From Pleurostoma richardsiae (taxonomy: Eukaryota > Ascomycota > Sordariomycetes > Calosphaeriales > Pleurostomataceae), in NCBI GenBank assembly GCA_030052745.1, contig JANBVO010000038.1, forward strand, positions 62,001-126,000: a stretch of DNA of 64,000 nt. Reading direction: 5' to 3'. Each line of letters begins with the position of its first letter. Within the stretch, counting starts at the first letter, position 1. The notes below the pieces were generated by a model. That model made no database searches and was not told where the DNA came from. It was given only the letters and a program-made list of their open reading frames with translations. The translations under genes and the position numbers were made by a program. Below, piece by piece: positions 29,161 through 63,578 of the stretch.

Positions 29161-32100
29161 TTAAGTCTTCATAGGAGCGCACTCCCCTTCCTGTTCTGTC
29201 TTAGGCACGTCGCGAGCTGCGCCTTTTCCAATGCGCTCTCCAACGATACGCAACAACTCCATACCCTCGTCGTTTTGGGTGGCCATCGCCATGGCCAGTG
29301 CATCCTGCCATGTGGTATCAGAGCAGCCGCGGGCAAGATGTTCGATGAGGTATAGGAAATCTTTGCCCAGGTGTGTCGCGCGGACAACAAGCCCGGCCTC
29401 TACATCCGTTGGCGGCGGGGCATCTGAGGAACGAAGATGGGGGGCCTGAACGATGAACTTGGCGAGCTGACTCGAGTGACAGGTGACTTCCACCGGCAGC
29501 TGCCCCTTCTTCGAGATATCATGCCGGACCAGGCAAGAGATAAGATCGAGGTATCGGGTAGCAGCTTTGACTTGGAAGTCCGAGCCTTTCGTCACCATTC
29601 CGTTCGCTTTGCCATGAAGTCCTTGTCGGCACTGCGTTATCAGTGGCGTAACATCACGAGCAAGAAAGTTCTCCATATGTGATGGCCAACTATGGAAACT
29701 GCAGCAAGAGTCAGCGATTATGGCTCGTCTCTCAAGTTCACTCAACATAACCCTCAACAGGTCCAGCAACACGTCGAGAAACTCGAAAGGTACAATTAGC
29801 TTCTCAGTTAAAAATCGCCCTTGTCTTTCAGGATTACCCCCAGAGGTTCGAAGGGGAAAGTATTTCTCGACGGATGTTTTGAACAACCAGAAGACGTGCT
29901 TGAACGCTGAACAGCCATGCTGGAGGTGCTCGGCGCCTGGGTCTGCTCCTAGCAGCACAAGATCCGTTGCCATGGCGTAGAAGCTCTTCGATCTTTCGGT
30001 ACAAGTCGGAAGATTAGGTGTCGGATTTGCTTCTTCGAGTGCAATCCAAAGCGGAGGTAAACGCCTCGGGCCGGACACAACATTGGGGTCCGCTCCTCGC
30101 AACGTAAACTGCGCGAGGCCGTGTTCCCAGCCCGACACTATAGCGACATGCATAGGTGAATGCAGGGGAAAGGCGCTCATTTCATCTGCCATGGCGTTGA
30201 TGCGGACCATAGAGTGCTTTGTCAAAAATTCGAAACCAACCAGGTCGGATGCTGCCACGCAATGGCAAAAGATATCCTGCAACTCCTGGCTGTTTTTCAA
30301 AGTGACAGGACATCCATATGTGGTGACGTGCTCTTCAGCCAGTTCCCAGGCTCTCAGCTGACAGCAGCGGCGCAGAAGTGTGCTCCCGCGGTGGCCTCCT
30401 AGGCGCACACCCGCGGATTGCAACACGATCCTGACGATTTCAAGCCTCGCATGGGACATGCCTTGCAGCGCCGTGTTTAGACAGGCCTCGATATCTTGAC
30501 TTGCAAAGTCGCCTGCTGATAGATTCATCAAGTCTCTCGCGAGCGCGATATTTTCGTTTCGGCATGCATGCGACAGTAGGCTAATAAGGCGAGGCGGGTG
30601 ACTGAGAATATAGGAGAGGGTTTCCTGGTACAGTGCATATTCATGCCTCTGGGTCAACCATAGAGCTAGATAAAGCTGCCTATCATCCACGCAGCGATAT
30701 GCAATACGTGATCGGATGAGCCTGAAAATCTCCAAAACGACATTGTCAGGCTGACCACTCGATAGAATAAGAGCCAAGGGGTGACGGCTCCCTTGGCAAA
30801 GATCAGGCACGGCCCCGAGCTCAATGAGAATTCGAACCATGTCGACGTTCCCCTTGGCACAAGCAAACTCAACAAGAGGCTGCTGCACAAGCCCTAGAGA
30901 GTTCGGCTCCAGTACTTTGCCCATTTCCGCAACCACTGGAGCTTTGTTCGAATACACGCCGGCAATGACAGCACGTGCCTGATTGTCGCTTGGGTCGGCT
31001 CCCCTGGCGATCAGGCTGCTGACCATCTGAACTCTGCCAAACAATGCCACAACAGGGAGGAGGGTCCGGAGAAGTCCTGGAGTAAACGAAATTTCAGAAA
31101 GGTGGCCGGAAAACATGTTGAGAACCCTCATGATGTCAACTATGGTTTTGATACCGCGCTTGCTCCTTAACTCGTTTCGGAGGAGGAGGGCATGGCTGCT
31201 GAGGATGGCCCAAGCAACTCTCAGGGACACGTTGCGGAGCAATGAGAAGCCCTGAAGATTGATGACTGTTGGCGTTTCTTGAGCGAAGAAAGAGCATAAT
31301 GAAGGGGGGCTCCACCCTTGCCCGTTTCGCAGGATTATCCTAGGCCGTTTGTCGGGTTGTAGGTATTTTAAGATTGTGAATCTGATTCGAGTGGCATAGA
31401 TTTTGATAAATGCCGAGCATAACTCGTATGCATCGTTGTCTTCTTCGAGATACTTGCTATGTGCCAACCAGTACTCAGTTGCATACTTCAGGAAGTGATG
31501 CGTCGGCGGAATTGATCCATTTAATGTAGCCAAATCGGAGAGGACCCCCTCTATCCTCGGATCTTTCGTTGCCTTGGGCACTAGCAGTCTTGAAGTAAAC
31601 TTCTTGACCGTTCGTAGAGGTGGTAGCGCCGATTTGATTATCTCCGACGGTATCTCACTGGCTCGGAGTCGAGGGACAACGGTTTTTGAGACTTGCCGGT
31701 TGAAATCGGGATAGCTGAGATAGGTAACCGTTATGCCTGCAAGTTCGGCATGGGCATTCTCTATTGTGAATTCCCATTCACAAGACTGATTCTTGCTGCT
31801 GAGAAGAAAACTTCTAACACTGTGGTGTGTCAGATGAAGTGTAGTCTCTTCCTCGTCAAACATAACGAGGCTTCCACAGCAACCCATAACTGAGAGTATG
31901 TCATTGACTTCCCAATCACGGTGCCGGATGGTAATTCCAGCTTTGACTGCAAGAGCCTCTCGCAACTCCTCTGCGGTAAGTGGCCGGTATGCCGCAAGGA
32001 GACATTTCAGAATTTTCGGCTGGAACAGCGGAGCAAGCCGCTTGGACTTGTCAAGGACACGACAGAATAGTGAATATAGGTCGCTTGGGAGGTTGCCGAT

Positions 32101-33777
32101 GCTTTCGCGAATGCCGCCATCAGTTTTCTCCATGCATATGCAGTCAATCTGCAGAACGACCCATAGGAACCTTGCCTCGTACAGTTAGAGGTATAAAACC
32201 AACCAATTGATCCTGGTGCAAACGTACATGCCTTGTGCTCCCTCCAATAGAGCGTTCTCGATTTCCCTCAAAAGGCCGGGGTCCCGGGTTCCAAGCTCCC
32301 CTAGAGATTGTCGATTTTGCAGTTCTGCACGAATATAGTGTTCAATATCGGGATTACGGTCTGATAGTAATAGAACTCCTCGGCGGTCGAACATCCCAAA
32401 TTTCCAGCGCGTCATAATGTCCACTTCGGATCTGGCGGACATACAAAGATGAAGGTTGAAAATATCTTGGAAACGGCGCATGGTGTCTAGAATAGTTATT
32501 CTTGCATTTTCATCACACTCGTCGAGCCCGTCGAGGATGAAGTAGGCGCAGTGCTCTCTCGGAATGACATATTCGAGGGATGCGAGTATGCCGTCTTCAT
32601 CCAATGGTGGTCTGAGACTTCGGAGACTCTTGACAATTTCGTCATTATTGTCGAACAGGAACTGTAGGACCTGTCGAGCAAAGCTTCCTGTTACCGATCG
32701 CGTCGTGAGGCTCTCTGGATCATCGTGACGACAAAAGAAGTACATGATGTTCGCCTTCTTGTTCCCAATGGACAAGTCATCGACTATGTTGGCCAAGAGG
32801 ATCGACTTCCCCGAGCCTAGCTTGCCGCTGACAATAAAGGTGGACGACCGGCTTTCGGTCCTCCAAGTTCGATATTCTTTGTCATTTTTAAACGCAGTGG
32901 CATTGCCACGTTTTCGAAGGAACTTCCATGTCTTCTCGTGACGGTAGCTGCTGCATGCCTTAAGCCATCTCAACTGCATCTCGAATACCTTTGACTGCGA
33001 GAGCGGGACTGCCATGCGAGCGACTACGGAGCGGAATCTGGAATTCTCTTTGGCCTCTTCTTCAACCCTTTGACTAGTCAGGATACCTACCTGCTCCCTG
33101 ATCGAGCTTGACCATAACTCCAGGTCGGCCTCTAGGGACTTCAGGCTTGATTCGTCGACAGACCCTATTAGCGTGGCCAAAACTGACTTGTTCGCGAGTC
33201 TCATGACATGCTGGCAGAGCTTGACGACAACGATGAAATATTCCGAGAGGTCAGATCGGAGCGCCTTCGACCGTGGATAAAGAATGGCGAGCAACTCGTA
33301 GCGAGGTGCTGAACGGCCAACACGCATGAAGAGAAGAGAGAGCTTCTCTAGTGATGATGCGCCACCGGACAAGAGCTGAAGAATGTTAGCTGTCAAAATT
33401 TAGTAGGGGGAGAAGGAATGCCAACTACTAACTAGGAGCGTGAGTCGGACAACAGACCACACACCGCAAGCAATGAGATTTTGTGAGCCGCCAACGAGGA
33501 TGTCTCCCAGGCCTGCAAATTGCTGGACGGCCTGGAGCAGGCTGATTAGTCTCGGACCGAAGCATCTTGCTCCAACCTTCCCTCCAGACGTCCGGTCAAT
33601 CTCGGCAACCACGGCTCTGACATCGCCAATCTGTGGCGGGGATAAGGATGCTTTCGACCTCTGGGCTCTGAAGGTAGCCTTCTGCTCTCCGGATAGGGAG
33701 GCTTCAAACTCCGAGACGGCTTGGGCCAGCCGGATTTCCGGCTTCAATCGAGATGCGTTTGCAACGGCGAACGACAT
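29161..33777 (-). CDS. Large NLR-like protein: DUF7708-type N-terminus, NACHT, ankyrin-type repeats (NLR 2)
   Basis: 1500 aa from exons 33777-33433, 33375-32228 and 32170-29161. The start MSFAVANASRLKPEIRLAQA matches the usual beginning of this family; the frame is open upstream. The N-terminal domain (ACGVWSVVRLTLL, EKLSLLFMRVGRSAPRYE) is of the DUF7708 type seen before fungal NACHT domains. Walker A is GKLGSGKS (about 299-306) and Walker B is YFILDGLDECD (about 393-401). Intron 1 (57 nt, donor GTTAGT, branch CTAAC, acceptor TTCAG) and intron 2 (57 nt) both close. Intron 2 falls inside the Met codon of AQGM-FLWVVLQID, as in NLR 1. The C-terminal about 900 residues contain diverged ankyrin-like units such as GNVDMVRILIELGAVPDL. 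Likely a cytosolic recognition or heterokaryon-incompatibility-type receptor. Confidence 0.88.
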
Positions 33778-35198: not shown

Positions 35199-35516
35199 TA
35201 AGGTACTCTCGGACCCATCCGGAAGTGGGGCCCCGCAGAAGGCGAATGGCTTTCCGGGGTCGGCGGCCGGGGCCGATGACTAACGGCATCGTCAACCGAC
35301 CTTATCTGACCTCAGCTTATCGATTGTTCGCTTCCATCCAGGCAATTCGGACAATTACAGCTCACATCGAGGGTTCCTGCGTCGGTAACGACGACCACTA
35401 CAACTACGCCGTGCATACCGTCAACTGCCACTGACTTCCCGCTTTCATCTACCCGGAAGCTCCCCACATCCGCCGCCGTCGGCGCTCCCATTCCCGCTCC
35501 CACTGCCGCCGTATCG

Positions 35517-38182
35517 ATGACCGCCGAAGCGCCGCCGGAACCCAACGGTCGCAAATACCGCTCCAAGAAGCAAAGACCGTGCGATCTCTGCCGCTCCAGG
35601 AAGATCCAGTGCAAGCTACAGGGAAATGGAGTTGCCTGCGAGATGTGCAGGAAGTTGGGGCGGGGCTGTACATTTGTTCTGGGGCCTCTGACGAGGAAGT
35701 ACCGAGCTTGTGCCAGCAGCGACAACGGTAGCCGCACGGAAACGGGCTCGCTTCTGCCCTACGATCAACAGGAGGACCCAGCAATGGGAGAAATGTCATT
35801 GTCGAACAATAGTGACTTGCACATGGCTGTCGATGTGGACCCCTTCTGGCTGCCCCCGGAGCTGCGTCTGGGCGGGCAGACATCGTCGAACATATTGAAT
35901 ATGGACTGGTCTAGCATGGAATTTGCCCACAGTAAGTTGCGTGCTTGGGTCGCAAAGTGGTTACCGTATCTGACGAGAATGCAGGCACGATCCCGAACGA
36001 GAGCAGTCGAAGCCTTCCCTCACCCCGAGCCGACAACGACGGCGTCCTCCCGCCTAACGCGATCTCACCAAATCATAACAACTTGCGGCCGGGTTCTGGG
36101 GGTGCCGCTTATACCGTTGTGTCGAGTGGATCACCGTCCACTGTCCCTGAGGCCGATATGCAGACGTCGCCCCAGGCCATGGATATGAATGCGGGATATG
36201 GCTTGGGAGGCTCTCCTAGACGTTCTATCACTGAGGCAAATAATGTGGAGGCAAGGCAGTATGCTCTACAGGGCTGGCCGTCGGAATTCTCTTTGGAGTC
36301 TCGGAAAGGATATTCAAACATGCTGATCGGCCTTTCTTGCGAGTCGGATCCCTATCTTCTCCGGAATTACTACTATAACGAGCATGACATCTACCCGATG
36401 TTCCGCCTCGATTTTCGCAAGGTCGTGGACGACGCCATAATACCACAGTCTGACGACGACGCATCAACGTGTCCGCCGGGCCAACCTCGTCGGCCCCATG
36501 GATCCATCCCCGTCCATTTCGTCATGGCTGATGAAGAGATATGGAAGGATGATGTTAAGGCTGCTGAGGGCCTGTTTTCAGGAAATACTACCGAGAAAAG
36601 CGATATTGAACTTCTGGGTAAGCTGGTGCCTCCTGATTTAGGGTCACGGCTACTCAGATTGTGAGTCATTCCGGATTGTAAGACCACCCTGATCGCGACA
36701 CCGCTGACTACTCAACAGATACGCCCAGTTTGTCCATCCTCGATTCCCTGTGCTCTCTCTCCGGGACCTAGAGCGAATACCAGAGTCTGACTGCAGCCTG
36801 TCGGTCCCCATCGGCCTTCGAAGTGCCGTTTACGCTCTAGCAGCCCCTTTCACTTTCTTGGACGATGAGCTCAGCGTCTCTAAGGGGTACCTACAAGTGT
36901 CTACGGAGGATCTGTGGGCTATCGCACACCGCAGCTTTCAGCGAGCGAGTCGCTTGTCGCATTTGTCCTCATTACAGCTGTGTCTCCTGCTGCTCCAGAT
37001 GCCTCCCCAGAGCTACGTTGCAGCAGATCCCCCGAGTTTTTGGGCACTGTCTTGTTCGGCTCTAGCCTTGGCAGAGAGTCTGGGAGTCAACCTCGACCCA
37101 TCAGGTTGGCGGCTACCTCGGGAAGAGATTATATTGCGAAGAAGGCTCTGGTGGTTCACTTACACGGTGCACACTTGGGAGGCTCTTGTTTGCGGGCGGC
37201 CTTCCCACATTAATGATGCGAACTGGGATGTTTCAAACCTCACAGCGGATGACTTCGAGGGGGATGCGTTCGAGGATCCCGAGATTCGAGAATCAATTCT
37301 ACAGGAGATACCGATTTGTTTGGCGCAGAGTGCATTGAGCTTGATCGCTGCTGATGTATTGAAAGAGTTCTAGTAAGTGACGACACTGCACTACTGAATG
37401 TGGTGACACCGTGCGCTGATGCGATCTCCTATAGCACATTGAGGGCAAATCGTGAGCCTCTCACACTAAGTGCGCTCTTGAGCCGTGCGCAACCTCTGCG
37501 AACACGCATCGAGAGCTGGAGGCAAACGCTCCCCTTACTTTCCAAGCCAGCCTCCGACCTGGACGAGCACGAGTTTGAACATGGCGCTGCCTTGCGCTTG
37601 TCGCATCTGACGCTGGAGATACTCATCTTCCGGGCACTTCTCCGGCCTCTCATCTTTCAGGCTGTGACTCCACCTGAGAGCTCGAGAGAGCCGATATCTA
37701 CGATATTCGAGAACAGTTATACATGTGCCAAAGTGGCGACGGAGATCGTCTCCTCGCTGCAAGCCAAGCATTTCGCCAGCTTTTGGCCTCCATGTGAGTT
37801 CACCGCCGGCTTCGAAGCTCATGGGGGCCTCGCCAAGGCCGCATAAGGGTGCAGCTGTAACACCGGCGCTCGTTGAACTAACCTGAACAAACTTTTGACA
37901 GATGTGCGATACCAATTGTGCTATGTTTCGGTCTTTCTATTGATGAACTTGGCCCAATCTCCCACTAGGGAGATCGCCGCCCGGACTTTGTCGCTGCTGA
38001 ACAAGTGGCGGAACACACTTCGGATCCAAGCACGAGCGTGGCCGCTGGCTAGGCTTGCCGCCATGAGGCTTGACGCCGTCTTCTGGAAGGGGCTGTCCAC
38101 GGCTGTCCACGGCGCAGGGCCGGACAGCCCAGCCATAACACTACTAAGGGAACAGAACCTCAAGGGTTCTGGAGAGCGATGA
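35517..38182 (+). CDS. Zn2Cys6 transcription factor with fungal-specific domain
   Basis: 794 aa from five exons: 35517-35931, 35985-36660, 36719-37372, 37435-37793 and 37902-38182. All four introns (53-108 nt) have GTAAGT or GTGAGT donors and close in phase. The zinc cluster has Cys at residues 22, 25, 32, 41, 44 and 51 (CDLCRSRKIQC and CEMCRKLGRGC). The middle-homology domain covers roughly residues 330-600, with LYAQFVHPRFPVLS, RRRLWWFTYTVHTWEALVCG and RPSHINDANWDV. It is the only transcription-factor gene in the 35-53 kb block. It lies next to the catabolic genes on the opposite strand, so it may control them; this is inference from position. No DNA target can be read from the sequence. 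Confidence 0.88.
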
Positions 38183-38683: not shown

Positions 38684-40216
38684 CTATGTCGTGCCGCTCC
38701 GTGCCTGCGCGGCATCGTAGCGCAGAATTGCCCCCAGCAATACCTGCGCCCCAATGATGCAGTCTTCTGGGCTACAGTACTCATCCGGGGTGTGGCTCAT
38801 GCCGTTCCTGGTGGGCGTGAAGATCATGGCAGTTGGGCTCCTCTTGCTCACGTTGCAGCTGTCATGGCCGGCGCCGCTATGCATGTGCCTCCAGAGCTTG
38901 TAGTCCTGCGTTGCTCCCGGCAGCTGGCCGCAGATCTCCTCCGCCGACTGCTCGACGGCGGCGATGCAGTCCTTGTCGAACTCGACTGCCGTGTTCTCCG
39001 TCAGCGTCGTCCACTTGACCTCCACGCCGCGCTCGCAGTCCTCCTTGGCGATCCTATCAAAGGTCTCGCGGCACCGCGCGACCATCTCGGCGAGCTTCTC
39101 GTTGCTGGGGTGACGGATATCCAGCGTGAAGTGCACGGTGTGGGCCATGGTGTTCACGCTGCCGGGTTCCGCGCGGAAGATGCCCGTCGTGATGAGCCCG
39201 GATAGGTCCTTCGCGATCGCGTTCGAGGCCGCGACCATCCTCGCCCCTGCCAAGAGGGCGTCCTTCCGAGCCGACAGCGGCGTCGTCCCAGCGTGACTGT
39301 CTCGGCCCTTCACCTCGACCTCGAACCAGCTATATGCCTGCGCGCCGGTGACGACACCGATCTTGCGCCGCTCGTCCTCGAGGATAGGTCCCTGCTCGAT
39401 GTGCAGCTCGAAGTGGGCGCCGATCGGCTGTGCCTCGTATGAGGCCGGCACCCCGCCCAGGAACCCGATCCGCTCGAGCTCCTCCACAAGGGTGCGCGGC
39501 GGGGTGTTACCGCTTCCAGGGTTTACCTCCGGGCAGTTCCAGGCCGTCTCGAGCGGGATAGAGCCAGCCCAGACGCCGGAGGAGACGGTGACCATAGGGA
39601 ACCTCGCGCCCTCCTCACTAATCGCACGCATGTCAGCAATTCACCCTCACCAGAGAGCTTGTGGGGGTTGTCTCTGCGTACGAACTTTGTCCAGTCCACG
39701 ATCCCCACGGGGCCCTCCGTCTCATATCCGCTCTCATGGAGCGTCCTCAACACCTCCAGTCCCGCCATGACACCGAGGATACCGTCGTAACGCCCGCCTG
39801 TTGGCTGCGTGTCCAGGTGCGAGCCCATCATGACCGGCGGCTTGGTCGTCTTACCGGGCCGCACGGTGAAGATGTTGCCCATCTGGTCTACCGTCACTGT
39901 GCAGCCGACCGCCTCCGCCTGCTCGATCAGCCAGCGCCGCACTCGCTTGTCGTCGTCGTTCAGGGCCAGCCGGGCCATCCCCGTCTCGGTGTGGTGTCTG
40001 CAAGACGCGGCCGTGAGCTTCACTGCACATGTCGCGTGCAGTGGTAAGGGGGATCACCTACTCGCCGTACCGGTGCGCTTTGCCGAACTCGCAGGTTGAG
40101 TGGATTGAATCCATGAGTCTATCGCCATTGACACGCAGAGAGGTGAAGTCGCGCTTGCCGGCCTTTGCCGAGGAGACCGGCTCGGCAGTCGCTTCTCGAG
40201 CGTGGTTGACAGTCAT
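38684..40216 (-). CDS. M20 family hydantoinase/carbamoylase-type amidohydrolase
   Basis: 466 aa from exons 40216-40062, 39997-39686 and 39617-38684. The family hydrolyses N-carbamoyl or ureido amides (N-carbamoyl amino acid hydrolase, beta-ureidopropionase, allantoate amidohydrolase) with two metal ions. Visible metal and catalytic residues are in MGSHLDTQPTGGRYDG (His and Asp), NEEGARFP (Glu pair), FELHIEQGP (His) and HSGAGHD (His), and GRDSHAGTTP of the dimerisation domain is also present. The NEEGARFP motif is made only by splicing out the 68-nt intron 2, which supports the model. That intron has an unusual donor, GTTCGT. The protein is probably cytosolic. Substrate is not decided by sequence. 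Its neighbours point to a ureide or carbamoyl intermediate of nitrogen-compound breakdown. Confidence 0.9.
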
Positions 40217-41014: not shown

Positions 41015-42727
41015 TTAGGCCTTCCCAGCAGCCTTCTTCTGCTCCGCCAGCCACGCCGTCGCGATCTGCTCGCAGGTGCAGAACTCGACCGCGTCCCCGA
41101 ACCCCCTGAGCCAGCCGATGAAGCGGTCCACCATGCCGATGATGTGCGCCAGGCCCGTGACGTCCGGGTGCACCAGGATGGGGAACACGAAGTCGGCGCT
41201 CTCGCCCCCCTCCGCGCCGCCGTTCTCCCACAGCCACATGAACTTGTCCTTCCACATCTGCTCCACCACCCGCGACGACACGTACCCCATGCTGTTGGGC
41301 AGGTGCGGCAGGTACATCATCGGCATCATGTCCTCGTTGTACCAGCCGCACGGCAGCTCCACCAGCGGGTGCTCGCCGCCCGCCGGCCACGCCTGCGAGG
41401 CGATGGCCGACGGCTGCAGCCACGACGAGGCCGGCTGGGAGAAGTCGATGGCCTTGATGGGCGGGTCGGCCGGCGTGAAGTAGGGCTGCGAGTCGTGGTG
41501 CATGAGTGACGAGTCGTACAGGAACTCGTGCTCGCGGAGCAGCTTGACCGTCGTCTCGCGGATGGTGTACATGGGCGCCCGGTAGCCGCGGGGCTTCTTG
41601 CCGACGAGCTTGGTCGCGACGTCGATGCTGCAAGTCATTAACTTAGTAAGAGAGATAAGAAGATGGGGCGTGAGACATACCATTTCAAGAGCACATCCCG
41701 CTCCTGCTCCTCTGTCATCTGGTAGATTCCCTCATGTGCATAACCATGCAGCCCAATCTCGGCCCCCGACTCGAGGACCGCCTTCGCCGCGGCCGGGAAT
41801 GTCTCGGCGGTGTGGCCGGGGATGAACCAGGTCACCTTGTCAGCGACGCCGTTCTTCTTGAACATGTCGAGGATACGGTAGACGCCGACCTGCCCGGCGA
41901 AGATGCCCGAGCTGTAGTCGGCCATGTTGTTGTCCGGGTGGCAACCCGTGCCGAGCCAGTGCGAGACTGCGTCAAAGTCGATCGACAAGGCGACCTTGAC
42001 GTGGTGAGGGCGCGAGCGGGTCGGCATGGTAGTCAACGCCGCCGCTGGCTGCTCGCCGGCGCCGCTCAGCTGGTACTCGCAGTCTGTGGGCATGCCCCCG
42101 TTCACCGGGGCCAGGTCCTGCGGGCAGGCGCTGATGACGATGATGAGGTCCGTCTCGGCCCTGAAGTTGACGAACTGGCCCTTCTCGCTGGTGGGGGCCC
42201 TGATGTCGAGGCCGCCGTAGTGGTCAATAGCTACATTCATGAAGAGGTTGAGCGGGTCGGGGACCCAGTCATCGGCAATGCGAAAGTCGGGGAAGTTGTC
42301 CTTCAAAGCCTGTTTTGCTAGAGTGTTAAGCAAGCAGAAATACCTACCAATTGTTATTACGGCAGGAGTGATATGCGCGAACCTTGTGCATGTTGTCGGT
42401 GCAGTTATCATGGTAGCCCTCGAAGCCCTGCATGCGGTATCTCTCTGCGTCACAGGCTGACCAGATCAGGTCGTGCGTGCCACGGGTGGTGTCCTCGGTC
42501 AGTGTCAAGATGGGCTTCCTCCGCGTGCTGTACAGCTTGTCGCCCTTGGACAGGACCACCTTGAGGAGGACGGTCCGCGTGTGGACCATGGAAAGGAAGT
42601 CATTAGGGTCACTTGGGTTGAAGGCCCAGAAGTCCAGGACCTGCTTGCCGTAGGTGTTGACGATCTTGATGTCCTGGCCTGCCTTGACTGGAAAGGCGAC
42701 CGCCTTGCGTGCTGGGATGATAGGCAT
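41015..42727 (-). CDS. Fusion of DUF1989 (urea carboxylase-associated) and NodB polysaccharide-deacetylase-type domains
   Basis: 528 aa from exons 42727-42383, 42309-41681 and 41627-41015; introns are 73 and 53 nt and both junctions close. Residues about 1-195 are a DUF1989 domain (MPIIPARKAVAFPVKAGQDI, CDAERYRMQGFEGYHDNCTD, DPLNLFMNVAID). Bacterial homologues are urea-carboxylase-associated and include carboxyguanidine deiminase subunits. Residues about 218-520 are a NodB-fold hydrolase: VALSIDFDAVSHW (Asp pair near 226-228), HGYAHE (His near 303 and 307) and GYRAPMYT. This branch resembles cofactor-free or cyclic-amide hydrolases (PuuE allantoinase, HxnM cyclic imidase) more than chitin deacetylases. 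There is no signal peptide, so a cytosolic small-molecule amidohydrolase is more likely than a wall enzyme. The junction DNMHK-ALKDNF inside DUF1989 and LLK-CIDVATKL inside NodB argue against two separate genes. Confidence 0.86.
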
Positions 42728-43503: not shown

Positions 43504-45457
43504 TCACAGCTTCAATATACTCATCAAATATGCCTTGAGCCACTGCCCGTCAATTGGTCCAGCAGATCCAAGCAGGCCGTCCGGCCGGAGAACAACTAGC
43601 CCTCCCTTCTCCATCTCGACACCGAACTTCTCGTGCGCAATGCTTGTAGCATCGTAATACGTGTCGCCGAAAGGCTTCGTGCCGATCGCCTCGTAAGGGG
43701 AGCAGCCAACCACCGGGCTGATGGTGATCCACCCGATAGTGCCCTGCGGCTTGAGTTCCTCGTTGGACTCCAAGTGCTTCTCTAGCGCCTTGAGTGAAGG
43801 ACGGGTTGAGTTGACATTCCCGGTGAAGACAACGACCCAGAACTTGCCCAGGTTCCGCGTGATGCGCTGGAATCGAACACTTCGGTTGGTCCCCGGCATA
43901 GCCAGTTCGACATCTGGCGGACGGCTGCCTGGCACGACTGCCAACGGTTGACCAGACGCCTGGTTGAGGATGTTGCTAGGATAGGTGATGCCGAGGCCTG
44001 TATTAAAGGGTGCAGCCTTCTCGAAAAGCTCGCCGAGCGCTAGATACGGATCGGCGCTGGGATCTCCCTTGTACCAGGACGGCCATTTGTGCGACATGAG
44101 CAGGGCGATGTCCTTGTCGTAGTTGATGAGCTGCTGCACGGCGCTCATACGCTCTGGGGAGTACGTCTTGAGCACGCCGTCCTGCGTGATCCCGCGGATC
44201 TGGAGCGCTAGCTTCCACCCCAGGTTGACGGCGTCGTGGATGCCCGTGTTCAGCCCTTGAGCTGCGCCGCTGCTGTGGGTGTGCGCCGCGTCGCCGCAAA
44301 GAAAGATGCGGTCCTTCGCCGAGAAGTCTCGAGCCATACGCTGTCCAATAGTATACCTGGCACTGTCAGCTTCACTTGTTAGATAAGGCTACTCGGAAAG
44401 GGCTTACAAGGTCCACCAGTGGACTTCCTTGAACTTGACGTTGAAAGGCTTCATGCTCTCGATGGCCTCTGCTACCGCGACCTCCTGTGTGATACCGTCC
44501 GGATACTTGGCAGCAATTTCCGGGCTGTACAGGTAGCCAATGCGCGTTGCGCCGTGATCAAGGGGTGCCCACAGAACATTGCCGTGTGTCCGGCTTTCAA
44601 TAGCACTAGTTGACCTCGTCAGGATGCTAACCAGATGGATGGCTCATAGAGTTGGAACCTACCCATACGAGCGGTTGAGCGGCATGTCAGTCTCCACGAG
44701 GCCGTCGATGCGAACCCATTGGTCTTCCGAGGTGTCGCCATCGAAGGGAATACCTGCATGTCTGCGCACAAAACTGCGTCCACCATCGGCACCGACGAGG
44801 TACTTGCTGCAGTGCCGTCAGCCAACTTCTTGTCCAGTTCGTCTATTTGGCTCGCGTAAGTATCTCACCTCTTAAGCTTAAAAGTCTTCTGCGTCTTTCT
44901 GTCTGTGAATGTTGACGTTACTGCGCAGGAGTCGGGTGGCGCAGATTCATCCACTTCGAAGTCGACGCACTCAACCGACTGGTAATAAGAGGCGCCGACT
45001 GCTTCGAGCTTCTCTCGGAAAATGGCTTCAGTGTACATCTGACGGAGCACGAGCGTGAAGTCATACGTCGTGTCACTAATATTCTCCATGAATGTCCAGA
45101 CCCTTCCAGGTATCCTGTTTGGGTGCAGGTTTAGCCAACACGGGTAAGATCTTCTCAGGGGGTGCGTCTGGGTACATGGTCTCACACTCTCTGTCCATCC
45201 TTGTATGTGACGCTGGTCCGGCAAGCGAAACCCAGCTGCAACATCGGCTCTATCAGGTCGAGCTGGTCGAGCTGTTCCGTGGTTCGGGGGAATAGCGCGA
45301 TAGCGCGTCCGTAGGCATCCTGCGTGTTCTTGTCGTACTGCTCGAGCACACAAGCAGAAACGCCGAATCGCTTGAGCTGATATGCCATCAGAAGGCCTAC
45401 CGGCCCTCCACCCACGATTACCACATCATACTCGGCAACCTCGCCGTCCGCCGCCAT
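43504..45457 (-). CDS. FAD-dependent monooxygenase, phenol 2-monooxygenase-like
   Basis: 570 aa from five exons: 45457-45186, 45114-44869, 44806-44663, 44605-44408 and 44356-43504. Introns are 51-71 nt and all close in phase 2. Family members use NADPH and O2 to hydroxylate aromatic or N-heterocyclic rings. FAD binding is shown by YDVVIVGGGPVGLLMAYQL (GxGxxG, residues about 10-28), the YLVGADGGRSFVRR region (about 175-190) and RIFLCGDAAHTH (about 303-313). The C-terminal about 180 residues match the thioredoxin-like domain of phenol hydroxylase-type enzymes (FQRITRNLGKFWVVVFTGN). HxnV of the Aspergillus nicotinate pathway belongs to this general family, so a role on a hydroxylated pyridine or piperidone is possible but not proven. 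Two GATA-type sites lie within 80 bp upstream. Confidence 0.9.
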
Positions 45458-45495
45458 CCTGATCTTGTTGTCCCTCAGGTCTGACCCCTTTGGGC

Positions 45496-45501
45496 CTATC
45501 T
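45496..45501 (-). promoter_or_regulatory. GATA-factor-like site AGATAG upstream of the monooxygenase gene
   Basis: HGATAR match about 40 bp upstream of the ATG at 45457. It is one of two within 80 bp. Confidence 0.3.
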
Positions 45502-45530
45502 CACTTGGCCAGTACTTTGACTATGCGATT

Positions 45531-46710: not shown

Positions 46711-48795
46711 CTACAATACCCCCAACCAACCAGAAGGATATCCGCCCACACGGGATCTCGCGAGAACAACGACCATCGTGCTATCTCGCACCACTGGCGC
46801 TGGTGTTTGTGACCTTGCATCTCTCTGGATTGGTTTCGGAGCCGACGCCGTAGCCTTGAAACGATAAACGGCTTCATCGACGCCGGCCACCCGCTCCATA
46901 CTTATAGCCTCGGAAGACAAAGTGGAGGAGCTCACAGTAATCTCAACAATGGGAGGGCTGCTGACAGGCAACTTCTCCTCGCCACGATCGACAACGATCT
47001 CGCCTTCAATCAATATGCTAAGCGAGCCAGACCCTTCACTGTCTCTGGGAGTAACCTCAGAGTTCTTAACAATCAACTTCGGTCGGTGAGCTCTGCTTAA
47101 GCCATTGGGGGGTGTCAACGACACCGTATCCGACTCGAGCGGCGGAGTCAAAGGCGGTGCGATGCGCCTGTGTGACTGCCCTTCGTATGCGTTCGCCCAC
47201 CTCAGCAGATTGACGTCGTCATATGCCCGGCTCGCAAAGGTCAGACTGACAGGCATGTGCTTATCCTCCATGATGCCCATCGGTATTGAGACAGTAGGAA
47301 TACCAAGGTGCCGTATCGCCCTGTTTCCAGTGCTGTAGAGCACCCCGTTCCGGTACGCGTATGCCGCACCGTCGTCGTCGACGTCTGCATCGGCGGGCCC
47401 GACGTCTCCTGCTGCGGGGAAGACGACGCAGTCGCACTTGTTTTCAGCTAGCCAGACGTCCAGGAGCTGTTCCCGCATTTCTTCGAGTGCTGAGAGGCCC
47501 CTTGCCAGGTCTTTGGTCTCGTATAACGGCGCAGCACGAATATACTCAGCAAGTTGGGTCCAGTGAATCGCATTCCTGGGGTCGAGTTGCTTCAAGTCAG
47601 GTGCAGTCCGCATAGAGTCGGGGTAGATCGAAAGCCCATCCACACCCAGGATATCTGGGAGTTTGGGATCCTTCGTGGATTGAAGGAAGTCGTTCCAGGC
47701 ATGGGCAATTAGCGGCCCTCTTTCTGCGGAGTTCCAGTCGTCTGGCAACCGTGGGCACCCATCCGGAAGGAGACTTGGGTTCTCGTAGGCTGTGACTGCT
47801 GGAAAGTCGGGTACGATAAGAATCTCCGCGCCAAGCGCCTCGAGGTCTTTCTTAGCCTGCTGCCAGAGCTCTTTTACAGCGTCGCAGGTGGTGACCTCTC
47901 TTGCACCCGGCGGTGGCGGCCCGCCGATATAGATTTGTGGCACCGCGATTCGGACACCTTGGAGAGACGTACAAGATTCAATCTGCCTAAGTGAGCCCAG
48001 GCCATCTGGCCACGGCTTCGGCAGCTTCACAAATGGTTGATCTCGCCAGAAATCGCCACCAGTGACGGCGTCGTCCACTGCGATGACCTCCAAGAGCCTG
48101 AGCATATCCTTCATCGTCCGAGTGTGAGGGACCACAACATCGCACGTTGGGTACAGCGGCCAGTTCCCCCGGATTGAGATCCAGCCCCGGGAGGGTGTGT
48201 ATGCCACCAAGGCATTATTCGATGCCGGCGATCGTCCGGATGACACAGTCTCCTCACCCATGCCGAATGCAGCGAATGACGCCGCCGTCGATACACCGGA
48301 GCCGTTTGAAGATCCGGATGCGAATCCGGCGGCAAGGTAGTTGAGATTGTACGGACTCTCCGCGCGCCCGTATATGCCTCGTTGCATGCCGCCGTATGCC
48401 ATCGGCGGCATGTTCGTTCGGCCTATCAGGACGCCTCCCGCCTTTCGAATCTCGTTGACGGTGAAGGCGTCCTCATTGGCGACTAATTCCCTGAAAGCTG
48501 GAGAGCCAGCCGCGACAGTCATGCCTTTGGCCTTGTAGCTGTCCTTGATGGTGTAGGGGATGCCCTCAAGGGGTCGGACCGGTGCGCCAGACACGCGGCG
48601 GTCATCGGACGCGGCCGCCTCATCGAAGACCGAAGTGTTCAGAACGGGGATGGAGTTGAGAGAGACGCCGCGGCAGTCGTAAGCGCTGACTCGGCGGAGG
48701 TACCGGGCGACCAGATCAACGCTTGTGATGGCCCCTGAAGACAGCGCCGCTTGCAGGTCGTCAATGGTGGCTTCTACAACATTCAACCGAGCCAT
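46711..48795 (-). CDS. Amidase-signature family amidase with C-terminal extension
   Basis: 694 aa, single exon. The ATG at 48795 starts MARLNVVEATIDDL. Amidase-signature enzymes cleave carbon-nitrogen amide bonds with a Ser-cisSer-Lys triad. Visible are the Lys in GIPYTIKDSYK (about 84), the cis-Ser in ASGSSNGSG (about 162-163) and the nucleophile Ser in EETVSSGRSPAS (about 186). The downstream RGNWPLYPTCDVVVPHTRTM corresponds to the usual S-x-D-x-x-GP-x-TRT region. The loop motifs differ from the classic GGSSGG form but the triad looks intact. The last about 140 residues (after SLTFASRAYDDVNLLRWANA) form an extra, hydrophilic domain of unknown function. HxnN of the nicotinate pathway is also an amidase. 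Here it could release ammonia from the product of the neighbouring hydrolases. Confidence 0.9.
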   Translation of the reverse strand: MARLNVVEATIDDLQAALSSGAITSVDLVARYLRRVSAYDCRGVSLNSIPVLNTSVFDEAAASDDRRVSGAPVRPLEGIPYTIKDSYKAKGMTVAAGSPAFRELVANEDAFTVNEIRKAGGVLIGRTNMPPMAYGGMQRGIYGRAESPYNLNYLAAGFASGSSNGSGVSTAASFAAFGMGEETVSSGRSPASNNALVAYTPSRGWISIRGNWPLYPTCDVVVPHTRTMKDMLRLLEVIAVDDAVTGGDFWRDQPFVKLPKPWPDGLGSLRQIESCTSLQGVRIAVPQIYIGGPPPPGAREVTTCDAVKELWQQAKKDLEALGAEILIVPDFPAVTAYENPSLLPDGCPRLPDDWNSAERGPLIAHAWNDFLQSTKDPKLPDILGVDGLSIYPDSMRTAPDLKQLDPRNAIHWTQLAEYIRAAPLYETKDLARGLSALEEMREQLLDVWLAENKCDCVVFPAAGDVGPADADVDDDGAAYAYRNGVLYSTGNRAIRHLGIPTVSIPMGIMEDKHMPVSLTFASRAYDDVNLLRWANAYEGQSHRRIAPPLTPPLESDTVSLTPPNGLSRAHRPKLIVKNSEVTPRDSEGSGSLSILIEGEIVVDRGEEKLPVSSPPIVEITVSSSTLSSEAISMERVAGVDEAVYRFKATASAPKPIQRDARSQTPAPVVRDSTMVVVLARSRVGGYPSGWLGVL

Positions 48796-48914
48796 GGTCA
48801 CTTTCGTGAATCTATAACTTCAACTTTCTTATGAGTCTGGGGAGAAGATTCATTGCTCATTAAGAGCTTCTCTCCCTTTATCGCTCCTGTGGACACCGAA
48901 CACCGATCGGCCTA

Positions 48915-49762: not shown

Positions 49763-50588
49763 CTATGAGAGGACACTAGACTTGGGCAGGTTCTTCAGAA
49801 TTACCAGAGGACCCAGAACCCAGGTACTTGTTTCACGATTGTAAGCCTTGGTGTTTTGTTCTCCCCCATCCACCACACTTCCCTCGTCGGCTCTCGCCTC
49901 CATTATCACGGTCTTTGCATCGCCACAGTTGGCTGCGGCCGCTTCGACACCAGCCAACTGTGCTCCAAAGCCGCTGGTTTGGTAGCTACTGAACTTCCAA
50001 GCTGGAACCTTAGAGTAGAAGAGGTCGTCAAGCTCCTCCAGGCTCCGCTTGCCAGTTTCAGGAAGCAGGAAGAAGCACCACATGACTGCGAGGAAAGAGA
50101 ACGAACCATAGATGAACCCGACACGTCCTTTGAGCCCACCATATCCCTCATTCTGCATATAGGGGTTGACGAAGGTGATGAGCACCGAGACGCAGAGGCC
50201 AATGAACGTGCCGATCATGATGGTCTTTTCACGCAGCTGCAGCGTTGGTGTCTCGGAGGTGACGATCCAGACAATGGAGGCACCGTCAGCAACTGTCGTC
50301 GACCTCGTAATAATACAGAAGACTCTCAACTCACCAGCCGCTCCAGCCTGTTGCGAGGAAGAACTTCCAGATGAATAGCGCAGCCAACGCGCCCTTCATA
50401 GCGTTCTGGTCATTGGCGAGCCCGAAGCCTGTTATCCCTGAAATGATGTACATGCATGACCCCATGATGAAGGCCGACGCAATCATGATCCATCGCCTTC
50501 CGAGCCGATCTGGAAAGTAGAAGGTGAAGGAGCTCGACGTGGTCGTGGTAAGGACGAGAAGCACCTGGATTTGGTACGTGTTATTCAC
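49763..50588 (-). pseudogene. MFS sugar-type transporter, C-terminal remnant
   Basis: Two neighbouring open stretches match the C-terminal half of a fungal sugar-porter family transporter. The first (50588-50331) has DRLGRRWIMIASAFIMGSCM. The second (about 50329-49763) has IVWIVTSETPTLQLREKTIM, then NEGYGGLKGRVGFIYGS and the PETGKRSLEELDDLF signature. Transmembrane segments 1 to about 6 are missing. Only about 580 bp remain before the next gene, too little for the lost half. The intron between the two stretches cannot be closed with a normal length (only about 31 nt keeps frame). I read it as a truncated gene. Its last state may have been a transporter for the cluster's substrate, or an unrelated sugar permease. 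Confidence 0.7.
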
Positions 50589-51165
50589 CCCGATGGTCTA
50601 TACAGTTCATCTTTGTACGAAGGGGCTGTGCTCCCTGGTTGATCGTACGATACAGATCATCGAACTGAAGAACATCAGCATAAAGTTGCATCTTCGAAGC
50701 ACTGTTATCGTCATTTTCAGGTCTCGCCTTCTGAAGAGTTTCCTGTAGCGATGGAGCAACAGTATCACAACTTGATGCATCGTTTGGTAACTTGGCTCAA
50801 TCACTACGTCACCATCACCTCTGATATGTATAAGAAGATGACAAAGGAAGGAGGTATCCAGAAGCTGAACTCGACCTTCGGAGGTAGAGTTTCTTGCTGG
50901 GAGAGCGACGATCAGGAAGTCCGCCAAATTACAAGGAAGGACGACCCTTTCACACGATCAACACGCTACGCCAAGGAGCCGCATATTCTACTCGCGCCTT
51001 CAAGTGCCACGACTTATCCTCGTACCGAAGCTATGCACGTCATAAGTGTCTTTGATTCTAAGAGAGTTGTACATCCGACTGTTAGCATGGTGAAGGTAGT
51101 TGAACTTGGCAAATAGTCTTCTATCAAGAACGAAATGCCATATTACTGCAGGACTATGGCTCTCC
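50589..51165. other. Intergenic between the transporter remnant and the esterase gene
   Basis: About 580 bp. One minus-strand open frame of about 70 codons (with TLQKARPENDDNSASKMQLY) is protein-like but unrecognised. No transporter-like N-terminal sequence was found here. Confidence 0.4.
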
Positions 51166-60242: not shown

Positions 60243-61270
60243 CTAGCAGCGGCCGCTAAGGTAGTAAGCCATCTTGTGTCTTCGTCGTCCGGCTGTACAA
60301 AACTTAGCTGTGAGATGCGGGAAGGGCAAGATTGTGTCCATGGAGAGCTGGGGCCGCACCTGAGACGTCTTCAGCAGAGTCTGCTGCTGCTTAAGATTCT
60401 CTACCGTATTCCGCAACTCGGTGATCTCATCGAGCAGGCCCTTTTTATCCTTCTTCATCTCCTCCAGCTGCGCTTCGACAAGTGCGAGCTTCTCGCCCAA
60501 TTGCTGATTCAAAAAAAGTCCTGCCGCCGAGTTCGCCACCACTCCACCGTTCTTGCTTAGGTCGTCCTGTAGTGCGAGAACGACACGACTCTTATTGACA
60601 AGCTTCCGGATGATATCGAGGGCAGACCGCTGCGTGTTGTCATGCTTGACCACCTCCGCGCCCAGACGATGCATCTCCCCCCAGATGTGCGGCGTGGAAA
60701 TCCGTTCTTGCTGTCTCCTCTCGCACTCGTCCAGAGTCTCAGCCCGTACAGCATCCCACATTGTAGTAGCAATGATGACGTGGTTGAACGCGTCTTCGCC
60801 GCAGATCTTCTCAAAAAGTCGGGTACGATTGCTCTCAGACTTCTTAAACTTGATTTCGTTGATCTGCTGGAGGAGGATCACCCCACTCAGCAGAGTGTCC
60901 TTATCGTATGTCGTCTTCAGCCACTTGGCCATCAGCGTCAGGATGTCCGCATCGGTCCTCTCCGAGTCGTCGAACCCAGGTGTATCGACAAGCACGACGC
61001 GCTTGCCATCAACATCGAGAGAGGACAAATCGATATCTTCGGTACCTGTATGTTGGTCAGCTATAACATGAATGGCAAGATGCAGTCGAGTTCTGGGAAG
61101 AATGCTTGCCGAAATTAAATCTAGCAGAAGGAACACGTACATGAACTTGGACCATCGCTGACCTTCAGATCGCTACGCCCTGTGGCCCTATTTATAAAGG
61201 TCGACTTTCCTGCACCGGTAACGCCAATAACTGCTATCAGGATTGGGTCGGGATTGAGAAGATACGGCAT
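60243..61270 (-). CDS. AIG1-type (GIMAP/IAN-like) GTPase with coiled coil, copy 1
   Basis: 310 aa from exons 61270-61141 and 61045-60243. TRAFAC-class GTPase related to plant AIG1 and animal GIMAP. The P-loop GVTGAGKSTFIN is near residues 16-27, G3 is VVLVDTPGFDD, and IIATTMWD corresponds to the G4 region. The 95-nt intron (GTACGT donor) splits the Cys codon in GPSSC-TEDIDLSS. A coiled coil of about 60 residues follows (LGEKLALVEAQLEEMKKDKK, ITELRNTVENLKQQQ). The C-terminal about 35 residues look unconserved, and another 3' exon cannot be excluded. Fungi have many such genes of unknown role. It is divergent from copy 2, 930 bp away. Confidence 0.82.
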
Positions 61271-62199
61271 TATGCTATCGAACCTAGTACAGGGAATAGA
61301 TCGACGGCTTTGGGATGTTTAGAGGGCTTTGTTGAAATCGATCGTATTCTTCAGCATAGGGGACCACTAGGCTTGCGATGCACAAAACACGCTGGACGAG
61401 ACTGATATATCCTGACTGCAAAGACCTCACATCTCATTGATGCATGCAGATGTCACCAGCTCCCCAGCCGCAGTTATCAGCCTCAGCATCCGAGGCGCTA
61501 ATGTACCATTGATAATGCTATGATCATGTTAAAATGGTGTCATTAGCAAGCCTCCTGGTCTACCAGACTGGTTAGGATTTCCTGTCTGGGAAAGCCTTGT
61601 CTAGAAGGTAGGGGGGTTCCATTGAGGTGTCGTGCCATAGCGGCACGAATCTCGAGATACATTAGAAAGCTGCAGTTCGGAGCCTCTTCCGACAGAGTGC
61701 TGGGATGGCGGTTCAGCCCAGCAGAGTCAAGTCGGACTTCACACACGCTTGGGCTTCAGCCCGATTGGGATAGTGGTCGCACTGCAAAATCAATAATTCA
61801 CTGTCGGGGAGGTTCACTGGCCCTCCGGATTGGCCAAGCGGATGGACACTGTTATATCTCGTCACATGGATTATGTATGTATGATCTTGGGCATGTGGCC
61901 AGGCAGAGACAGAGCTGAAAATGTTTGTCATGCAGGATCACGCATTTGACTGGGCTGAGCAGCCACATAAGGTGATGTTCCCTCAACATTTGCCGCAAGC
62001 ATAGTCAACTGACGATAATGCTTCGAACAAACACCGATGTGGGTTCCAGAGAGAAGACAGTCAAATGCTAATGGAGGCCGATGTTATCCGGGGGCGCGCG
62101 AGATTGCAACTTCTCGTCCTGTGTCTTCAGAGTTCTTGACTAGAGCCAACTCGGTAATTCCCACCCTTCACGAGCCATATGCCTACCTAGTTATTAGCA
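61271..62199. other. Divergent intergenic region between the two AIG1-type GTPase genes
   Basis: About 930 bp, likely holding both promoters. No gene was recognised. An open frame from 62037 reads into copy 2, but its translation is Cys/Trp-rich and not GTPase-like, so I treat it as leader. Confidence 0.45.
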
Positions 62200-63578
62200 A
62201 TGGATCGATACTCGGACTTCGACAGAAGGCGTACAAATTCCTGGTCTGGACACGAAAGCGGGTGCCTAGCATCTGGGACTCCCGGGAATGGAATGCTCAG
62301 TGCGCGACGAAGTATGACCCTCGATGTGGAATCTTTCAAGCGGACACCGCCTGCAGTGACGCAAACAAAAGAGTGTGTCGATTCAATACTGATTATTGCT
62401 TGAGGTGTGCTGATACAGCCTTTGGCAGTGAACGAGCAAACTCCTATCGCACTGCCATTCTCCTTCTCGGTAGCGTAGGTACGGGCAAGTCGTCACTGAT
62501 CGCCAGCCTGGTTAATAGCAACGTCCCAGTCGGTCATGACCTCTATCCATGTACGTGCCTCAAGTTTTGGCCCATACCACGCAGATCGGATCTGACACCC
62601 CAGACAGGTACCTCGGACCCCGAGGGATATGAATATCTTGACGACGTTGATGGGACACGGTTTCTTCTTATAGACACCCCGGGCTGGGACGACGTGAACA
62701 AGACGCACATGGCGATTCTAACATCCATTGTCGAATACATGCGCAGCAAAAGAGACTGTAGAGTTACAGCAGTCCTCTTTCTATGCCGCATAAATGACAA
62801 CCGCATCACTGGGTCCACGAAGCTATATCTCCGTCTTCTTCGAGCTTTTTGCGGCGAGCACTTCACACAGAACATAGTTCTGGTCACAACTATGTGGAAT
62901 CAAGTTGCGCCCCATATCCTTCCCGAAGCAGAACAACGAGAGGCCGAGTATAACTTCACTGATGCCTTCTGGGGCGATTTGATAGAAAAGGGGGCTCGCT
63001 ACGAGAGATGGGACGGCACCAGCGCTGCAAGCAAGAGAATTATCCAGGGGTGTCGACGGTCGGATGGGCCGCTTCCTCAGATCCTTCTTGAGGTTGAGCG
63101 TGGAGTTCCCGTCGAGCAGACAGCCGCCGGACAGGTCCTGACCGAGGAGGTTCGAAGACTGGAAGAGAAGGAGCGCAGGAGGATAGAGGAAGAGGAAGAG
63201 GAGCTGAGAGAGCTCGAGCACGAGAAGCTTCAGCTGCAGAGAACTGTTAGAGAGATGGGAGCTGTCCCACAGCCACTTTACGATCGCCAGTCCCAAGCTT
63301 TCATTCCTTCGGCAGCTACAGCACCAGGGCAAATATTTTCTCCCCATTATCACAATCCCAGGAGTCACCGTCACGGAAGCAGAAATCCCGAAGGAAGGGA
63401 TGAGTACGGGAATCCACGAAATCTCGCGAGGTACGATGCCAGCGAGAGTCCTAGCTCCGAGAGCCTCGATGATGAAGGCGGCGAAGGGCCTGCACAACGA
63501 GCCCGTTGGGGCTCGGGGAGAAGACCTAGGGATAGGCGAAGGCGTGGCGGGTTTTTGGATTCCTTCTTTGGGCTATAG
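62200..63578 (+). CDS. AIG1-type GTPase with coiled coil, copy 2
   Basis: 421 aa from exons 62200-62372, 62429-62550 and 62608-63578. Intron 1 (56 nt, donor GTGTGT, branch TACTGAT) joins TQTK-DERANSYRTAILLL. Intron 2 (57 nt, GTACGT donor) joins LYPC-TSDPEGYEYLDDV and is stop-free in frame. Without splicing it would insert 19 residues before G3. The P-loop is GSVGTGKSSL, G3 is FLLIDTPGWDD, and LVTTMWNQVA matches copy 1's TTMWD. A Glu/Arg coiled coil follows (EEVRRLEEKERRRIEEEEEE). The long tail is disordered, Arg/Ser-rich and ends GGFLDSFFGL. An upstream ATG at 62037 would give a longer unspliced N-terminus. I prefer 62200 because the spliced form is clean. Confidence 0.8.

Follow-up and report, generated by a model that had tools for sequence, protein, structure and literature searches.

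Introduction

DUF1989 is a large family of metal-site proteins, for which only two reactions are mentioned in the literature cited here. The bacterial DUF1989 protein pair CgdAB acts as a carboxyguanidine deiminase (PMC11271267), and cgdA/B are found in a guanidine operon (PMC12508155). In the DUF1989 domain of Tdm, C263, C279 and C343 are zinc ligands and H276 and D346 are proposed iron ligands, while D198, a bridging residue according to earlier work, is doubted in that role (PMC12560246). Hydrolases of the NodB fold are represented by HxnM, the cyclic imide hydrolase of nicotinate breakdown in Aspergillus nidulans, which acts after the short-chain dehydrogenase/reductase (SDR) HxnW and before the amidase HxnN, the phenol-hydroxylase-like HxnV acting earlier in the route; its best solved relative is HpPgdA (PMC9304392). 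For HpPgdA (Helicobacter pylori HP0310, PDB 3qbu), its structural study favours a small substrate and reports no signal peptide, and cites earlier work for deacetylation in a crude peptidoglycan test (PMC3084791). Here, we describe a gene of Pleurostoma richardsiae that joins a DUF1989 domain to a NodB-fold hydrolase in a single protein, located in a stretch of 64,000 nucleotides (contig JANBVO010000038.1, positions 62,001 to 126,000; hereafter the window). That it is a hydrolase fusion for a small ring is well supported. On balance, the protein is probably a cytosolic bifunctional ascomycete hydrolase whose NodB domain would open the ring of a cyclic imide or ureide made ready by DUF1989; the substrate and the order of the steps are what we infer. 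The enzyme families are known ones in a new arrangement, not a new kind of system, and no description of a DUF1989-NodB fusion was found in the literature searched, whose coverage mostly excluded subscription journals.

A Single Spliced Gene with Two Folded Domains

The two-domain fusion of P. richardsiae is confirmed. A sequence-only reading of the window had proposed one spliced gene with an intron inside each domain, and its coordinates proved exact (Table 1): the spliced product is identical over its full length to the deposited P. richardsiae protein P0001 (100% identity in a protein search), and both Pfam profiles are matched above their cut-offs. DUF1989 (PF09347) covers residues 3-171 with 174.2 bits (cut-off 27) and spans positions 2-168 of the 168 in the profile, and Polysacc_deac_1 (PF01522) covers residues 260-360 with 57.8 bits (cut-off 23.1), within a NodB-fold hydrolase region of residues ~216-524. 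The junction between the domains (residues ~172-217) lies within exon 2, which belongs to a single open frame of 275 codons (41638-42465); a mis-splice is therefore excluded, and the fusion is independent of splicing. Since the architecture also recurs in homologues, an origin by chance or mis-splicing was rejected. Seven truncated homologues, one of them from Penicillium malachiteum, carry DUF1989 and the first part of NodB within a single frame. They stop at the point that corresponds to the beginning of intron 2 in P. richardsiae, with ...LLKW in P0073, P0074 and P0076-P0079 and ...FLKW in P0082. DUF1989 is matched three times in the P. richardsiae genome, and two of these matches are exons of the fusion gene.

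Both metal sites are recognizable. The DUF1989 residues C92, C109 and C177 align with C263, C279 and C343 of Tdm, and H106, D180 and D32 with its H276, D346 and D198, while the NodB part holds the Asp pair (D226/D228) and the HxxxH motif (H303/H307) that the sequence-only reading had recognized. In the 43 of 88 two-domain proteins that were aligned, all six Tdm-aligned residues, including the three cysteines, are kept in 42 (alignment A3), the exception being P0072 of Penicillium herquei, whose DUF1989 is decayed and whose NodB is intact; D226, D228 and H303 are kept in all 43, and H307 in 42. Across 19 aligned fungal, bacterial and other sequences, 38 DUF1989 positions are invariant. The absence of a secretion signal, likewise claimed before, is borne out by eye from the sequence, without a signal-peptide program, because DUF1989 begins at residue 3 and leaves no room for one. 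A structure model from 94 alignment rows is good, with low confidence in the linker at residues 201-213; an earlier one, based on 30 fungal rows, reached a mean pLDDT of 69.3 and was of poor quality. Sequence and predicted structure show both domains to be complete and folded, with their metal-site residues conserved and a flexible linker between them. The comparison called VIA re-examined the matches of Foldseek, and absence from its list is uninformative.

Among characterized or solved relatives of the N-terminal half, TM1040_0329 (3oru, 3siy) is 44% identical over 195-196 residues, with a root-mean-square deviation of 1.3-1.5 Å; it is a stand-alone bacterial DUF1989 protein for which the entries state no activity. 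Tdm (9q59) shares the domain and all six metal-site residues; it has another DUF1989-like domain besides, as well as one resembling GcvT, and no NodB domain is described for it (PMC12560246). None of the four Pfam matches of the fusion (E up to 1) is to a GcvT family, and the protein reaches 109.6 of the 1100 bits required by the trimethylamine N-oxide demethylase equivalog NF053776. CgdAB belongs to the same family as the N-terminal half, but is a two-subunit bacterial enzyme. A reading in which DUF1989 serves chiefly for stability, oligomerisation or regulation, with NodB as the sole catalyst, is unlikely. The conservation of all six metal-site residues in 42 of the 43 aligned fusions and the existence of fungal proteins with DUF1989 only argue against such a role, whereas the decayed domain of P0072, a sister clade in which the SDR is decayed and NodB is conserved, and the significant share of DUF1989 in the dimer interface of a Tdm model (PMC12560246) would be in keeping with it.

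The NodB Half and Its Relation to HxnM

In both sequence and structure, the nearest solved relatives of the NodB half are HpPgdA, which ranks best, and the allantoinase PuuE (3cl6, 1z7a; 24-26% identity), and chitin deacetylases score far lower. These comparisons show that NodB belongs, as far as sequence and predicted structure indicate, to the small-molecule branch of the fold (cyclic imide hydrolase or allantoinase-like). The fusion reaches 53.1 of the 424.6 bits required by the PuuE equivalog TIGR03212 (NCBIfam), and PuuE, in contrast to HpPgdA, is reported to bind no metal (PMC3084791). Neither HpPgdA nor A. nidulans HxnM has a DUF1989 domain, unlike the fusion. A secreted chitin deacetylase was rejected, as the sequence leaves no room for a signal peptide and the protein is closer to HpPgdA and PuuE than to chitin deacetylases. 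A cell-wall deacetylase of chitin or peptidoglycan type with an unrelated passenger domain is hardly credible: the NodB fold common to these enzymes, the label 'peptidoglycan deacetylase' and the like in databases, and the crude peptidoglycan test reported for HpPgdA point in that direction, but DUF1989 occupies the protein from residue 3, the chitin deacetylases fall far below HpPgdA and PuuE in score, and HpPgdA itself is credited with a small substrate and no signal peptide. The names 'peptidoglycan deacetylase' and 'polysaccharide deacetylase', under which this recurrent ascomycete fusion stands in databases, are probably wrong.

The resemblance to enzymes of the PuuE/HxnM type, proposed from the sequence alone, holds insofar as HpPgdA and PuuE are the closest solved relatives, but does not extend to orthology with HxnM, since a separate HxnM-like gene is present in the genome. 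An hxn-like cluster, assigned by domain types, lies on another contig (G000:C56, ~186000-202500; L021, L022) and comprises an SDR, a Fungal_trans regulator with an additional C2H2 match just under the cut-off, a NodB protein, an amidase, a phenol-hydroxylase-type monooxygenase, a flavin mononucleotide (FMN) oxidoreductase and a second flavin adenine dinucleotide (FAD) monooxygenase. The HxnM-like NodB gene of this cluster is 39-42% identical to the NodB of the fusion. In a NodB tree of 58 rows (20 of the 88 two-domain proteins, 28 of 99 NodB-only proteins, and 10 own or bacterial sequences), rooted by an outgroup and with some supports modest, the C56 gene and four bacterial relatives form one clade (100/99), and the fungal clade with the fusion is separate (97/95); A. 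nidulans HxnM itself is absent from the tree, and according to a warning of the program, the position of the long C56 branch may be wrong. Fragments were mostly excluded from this tree, as from the DUF1989 tree described below. Because of this separation, the fusion is best seen as a putative paralogue of the HxnM-like gene in a parallel setting, and the HxnM orthologue was rejected subject to the caveats of the tree. That the protein is the HxnM of the nicotinate pathway, extended by a further domain and using 3-hydroxypiperidine-2,6-dione as its substrate, is very unlikely: its neighbours do parallel the pathway (FAD monooxygenase, amidase and NodB as HxnV, HxnN and HxnM), and it shares with HxnM the same best solved relative (PMC9304392), but the C56 cluster has its own HxnM-like gene, of limited identity and in the other clade. 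A second NodB paralogue (G000:C83:3992-4762; L019) is 62% identical and groups with the decayed-SDR type.

A Proposed Exchange of the N-Terminal Domain

Three architectures occur in the fungal NodB clade, namely DUF1989::NodB, SDR::NodB and NodB alone. The SDR::NodB proteins (e.g., P0257 and P0268) come from environmental contigs and are called fungal solely because they are placed inside this clade; their NodB is likewise C-terminal, with an SDR at the N-terminus instead of DUF1989. The DUF1989 fusions (n = 20) form one clade (81/97), with joint support of 97/99 together with a sister clade (99/100), the named members of which are Penicillium, Aspergillus, Talaromyces and the paralogue of P. 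richardsiae itself. The N-terminal region of the sister clade had no Pfam SDR match in the five proteins tested, and is SDR-like by profile comparison (hhalign probability 97.7); the SDR fusions occupy deeper branches. The simplest account would be an ancestral SDR::NodB protein in which the SDR was later replaced by DUF1989. By analogy with HxnW followed by HxnM, DUF1989 in the N-terminal slot might then supply the imide for NodB. Among the SDR sequences compared, the one from the Rhizobium locus L105 came out best for P0257, P0268 and P0274, with 32-34% identity to their SDR domains; P0261 and P0264 match another L105 gene better, and P0270, P0276 and P0279 match none. This match supports, without proving, the notion that NodB opens the product of its N-terminal partner. 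In L105 (2880-11902), a NodB of the related bacterial clade is found near an amidase, a metal-handling protein of CobW type, solute-binding/ABC-transport genes and the SDR, and the locus may be an operon for cyclic imide use.

The sequence-only reading had proposed a two-step enzyme in which the ring is opened and the product then deiminated or otherwise processed; the small-ring hydrolase fusion stands, and this order of steps is retained only as a rival. NodB would act first on an iminohydantoin- or creatinine-like ring, and DUF1989 would then deiminate a guanidino or carboxyguanidine-like acid. We consider this unlikely: the known carboxyguanidine deiminase activity of CgdAB and its operon favour it, as does a Microvirga locus (L056) in which DUF1989 lies ~4 kb from a group of NodB, ureohydrolase and M20 genes, but the SDR::NodB fusions hold, in the slot of DUF1989, an enzyme expected to act upstream. 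In addition, the NCBIfam cut-offs of the urea-amidolyase-associated families are not reached (TIGR03424, 101 of 284.7 bits; TIGR03425, 63.7 of 205.95). We take the UAAP1 and UAAP2 models of these families to be equivalent to CgdA and CgdB.

Distribution in Fungi and Bacteria

Homologues were collected as the 299 best proteins among the matches listed in three protein searches. Both domain profiles are matched by 88 of them, 59 at full length, and all two-domain carriers with an organism name are ascomycetes. The named genera include Stachybotrys, Clonostachys and Sporothrix, which we take to represent Sordariomycetes; Penicillium, Exophiala and Talaromyces, presumably Eurotiomycetes; Mollisia and Hyphodiscus, presumably Leotiomycetes; and Zalaria and Rhizodiscina, which we assign to Dothideomycetes. 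The DUF1989 tree (57 rows: 20 fused, 12 stand-alone, 24 bacterial and 1 own) is weakly resolved, with the bootstrap not settled, and fungal stand-alone copies appear among fused ones, a pattern that may equally reflect loss, fission or broken gene models. P0125-P0144, many of them from Fusarium, consist of the DUF1989 half alone (~200 amino acids), and some are named 'polysaccharide deacetylase family' without having a NodB domain. P. richardsiae itself also has a stand-alone DUF1989 gene (G000:C46:503015-503566; L023, L024), ~28% identical, flanked by quinolinate phosphoribosyltransferase and amino-acid permease frames.

For bacteria, the best 80 of 461 DUF1989 loci were inspected with flanks of 10 kb at most, less where a contig ended. 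A NodB match was found in the flanks of 19, and is strong in 18 (16 Bradyrhizobium, 1 Bosea and 1 Microvirga), so that the strong cases, being mostly Bradyrhizobium, represent few independent events. Four of the 18 flanking NodB proteins (two from Bradyrhizobium, and those of Bosea and Microvirga) were included in the tree and fall on a branch other than that of the fusion. The other annotated neighbours of these DUF1989 loci show no clear common theme. No DUF1989-NodB fusion was found in 20 bacterial genomes chosen for DUF1989 relatives (E up to 1e-8) or in 190 alphaproteobacterial genomes (E up to 1e-50), the two sets sharing one genome.

Genomic Neighbourhood and Proposed Pathway

The fusion gene and its neighbours are listed in Table 1. 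The amidase, the FAD monooxygenase, the fusion and the M20 amidohydrolase are all encoded on the minus strand, with the Zn2Cys6 regulator on the opposite one. The middle frame of the FAD monooxygenase has no Pfam match of its own.

Table 1. Structure of the fusion gene and neighbouring genes in the window.
Feature	Position	Strand	Remarks
Fusion gene	42727-41015	minus	Three exons; product of 528 amino acids
Exon 1	42383..42727	minus	Residues 1-115; initial two thirds of DUF1989, with D32, C92, H106, C109
Intron 1	42310..42382	minus	73 nucleotides, GT...AG; after residue 115, within DUF1989
Exon 2	41681..42309	minus	Residues 116-324 and part of codon 325; DUF1989 end (C177, D180), linker 201-213, NodB start (D226, D228, H303, H307)
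Intron 2	41628..41680	minus	53 nucleotides, GT...AG; splits codon 325, within NodB
Exon 3	41015..41627	minus	Remainder of NodB to residue 528 and stop codon
M20 amidohydrolase	38684..40053	minus	Spread over at least two frames; among solved structures, closest to beta-alanine synthase (1r43/1r3n, E 1.8e-72)
FAD aromatic monooxygenase, phenol-hydroxylase type	43504..45520	minus	FAD_binding_3 and Phe_hydrox_dim; several frames
Amidase-signature hydrolase	46711..48819	minus	702-codon frame; best solved relative 6te4
Zn2Cys6 transcription factor	35310..37373	plus	Zn_clus barely over cut-off, Fungal_trans clear; several frames, limits approximate

In the proposed pathway, the FAD monooxygenase would act early, on an aromatic N-heterocycle. 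At its three-cysteine metal site, DUF1989 could then cleave a C-N or C=N group of a small nitrogen ring by hydrolysis, setting free ammonia or an amine and yielding a cyclic imide or ureide. The ring amide of this product would next be hydrolysed by the NodB domain; the M20 amidohydrolase and the amidase might release the remaining nitrogen. The beta-alanine synthase of yeast is an N-carbamoyl-beta-alanine hydrolase. Such an activity in the M20 neighbour would match a ureide as the ring that NodB opens, and the amidase fits a plain imide. It is possible, but doubtful, that the locus represents an undescribed catabolic route of fungi for an N-heterocycle, in which DUF1989 replaced the SDR of an older SDR-NodB fusion, a hydrolytic step took over from dehydrogenation in feeding the ring opening, and the reactive cyclic intermediate is passed from one site to the other. 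The fusion of DUF1989 with a known type of hydrolase suggests that the DUF1989 reaction chemically adjoins ring opening, which narrows the search for it, and the joining of two different enzymes to one hydrolase type offers an experimental handle on a possible nitrogen-scavenging pathway of fungi.

Several observations weigh against a bifunctional hydrolase in which DUF1989 prepares the ring for NodB. DUF1989 occurs alone in Fusarium and some other fungi, and P0072 combines a decayed DUF1989 with an intact NodB; thus, the halves can exist separately. Among the 190 alphaproteobacterial genomes, a close NodB is found in 10 and a close DUF1989 in 8, both being present in one genome, 65 kb apart; a close NodB also occurs in 4 of the 20 genomes selected for DUF1989, never adjacent on a contig. 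The SDR::NodB proteins, on which the idea of an exchange is built, come from environmental contigs, and of nine of them YxxxK is present in four and the usual glycine motif in none, perhaps because the gene calls start late. Finally, an M20 enzyme suits an N-carbamoyl product and an amidase a plain amide, and hence the cluster points to no single ring type.

A shared regulator site was also considered. Among 110 spaced CGG/CCG patterns (a few of them duplicates), CGG-N6-CCG came out best: it occurs 22 times in the window, and 7 of these occurrences, against 1.8 expected, fall in five chosen upstream regions (8.2% of the window), four of which are represented. As the pattern was picked after the fact, it is not counted as evidence. 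UaY and Ppr1 use N6 spacing.

Other Features of the Window

Open frames adjoin the amidase gene on the minus strand (49763-50597), and one of them (49766-50395), possibly a remnant, has a match to a sugar-type major facilitator superfamily transporter that is confined to the C-terminal part of the latter. Farther away, two large frames on the minus strand (12333-13868 and 32188-33399) are of the NACHT/NPHP3-type STAND NTPase class, and each is followed by a long frame matching ankyrin repeats, clearly at 29164-32184 and weakly at 10776-12329. Two divergent frames, at 60246-61172 (minus) and 62019-63575 (plus), have weak matches to AIG1/dynamin-type GTPases.
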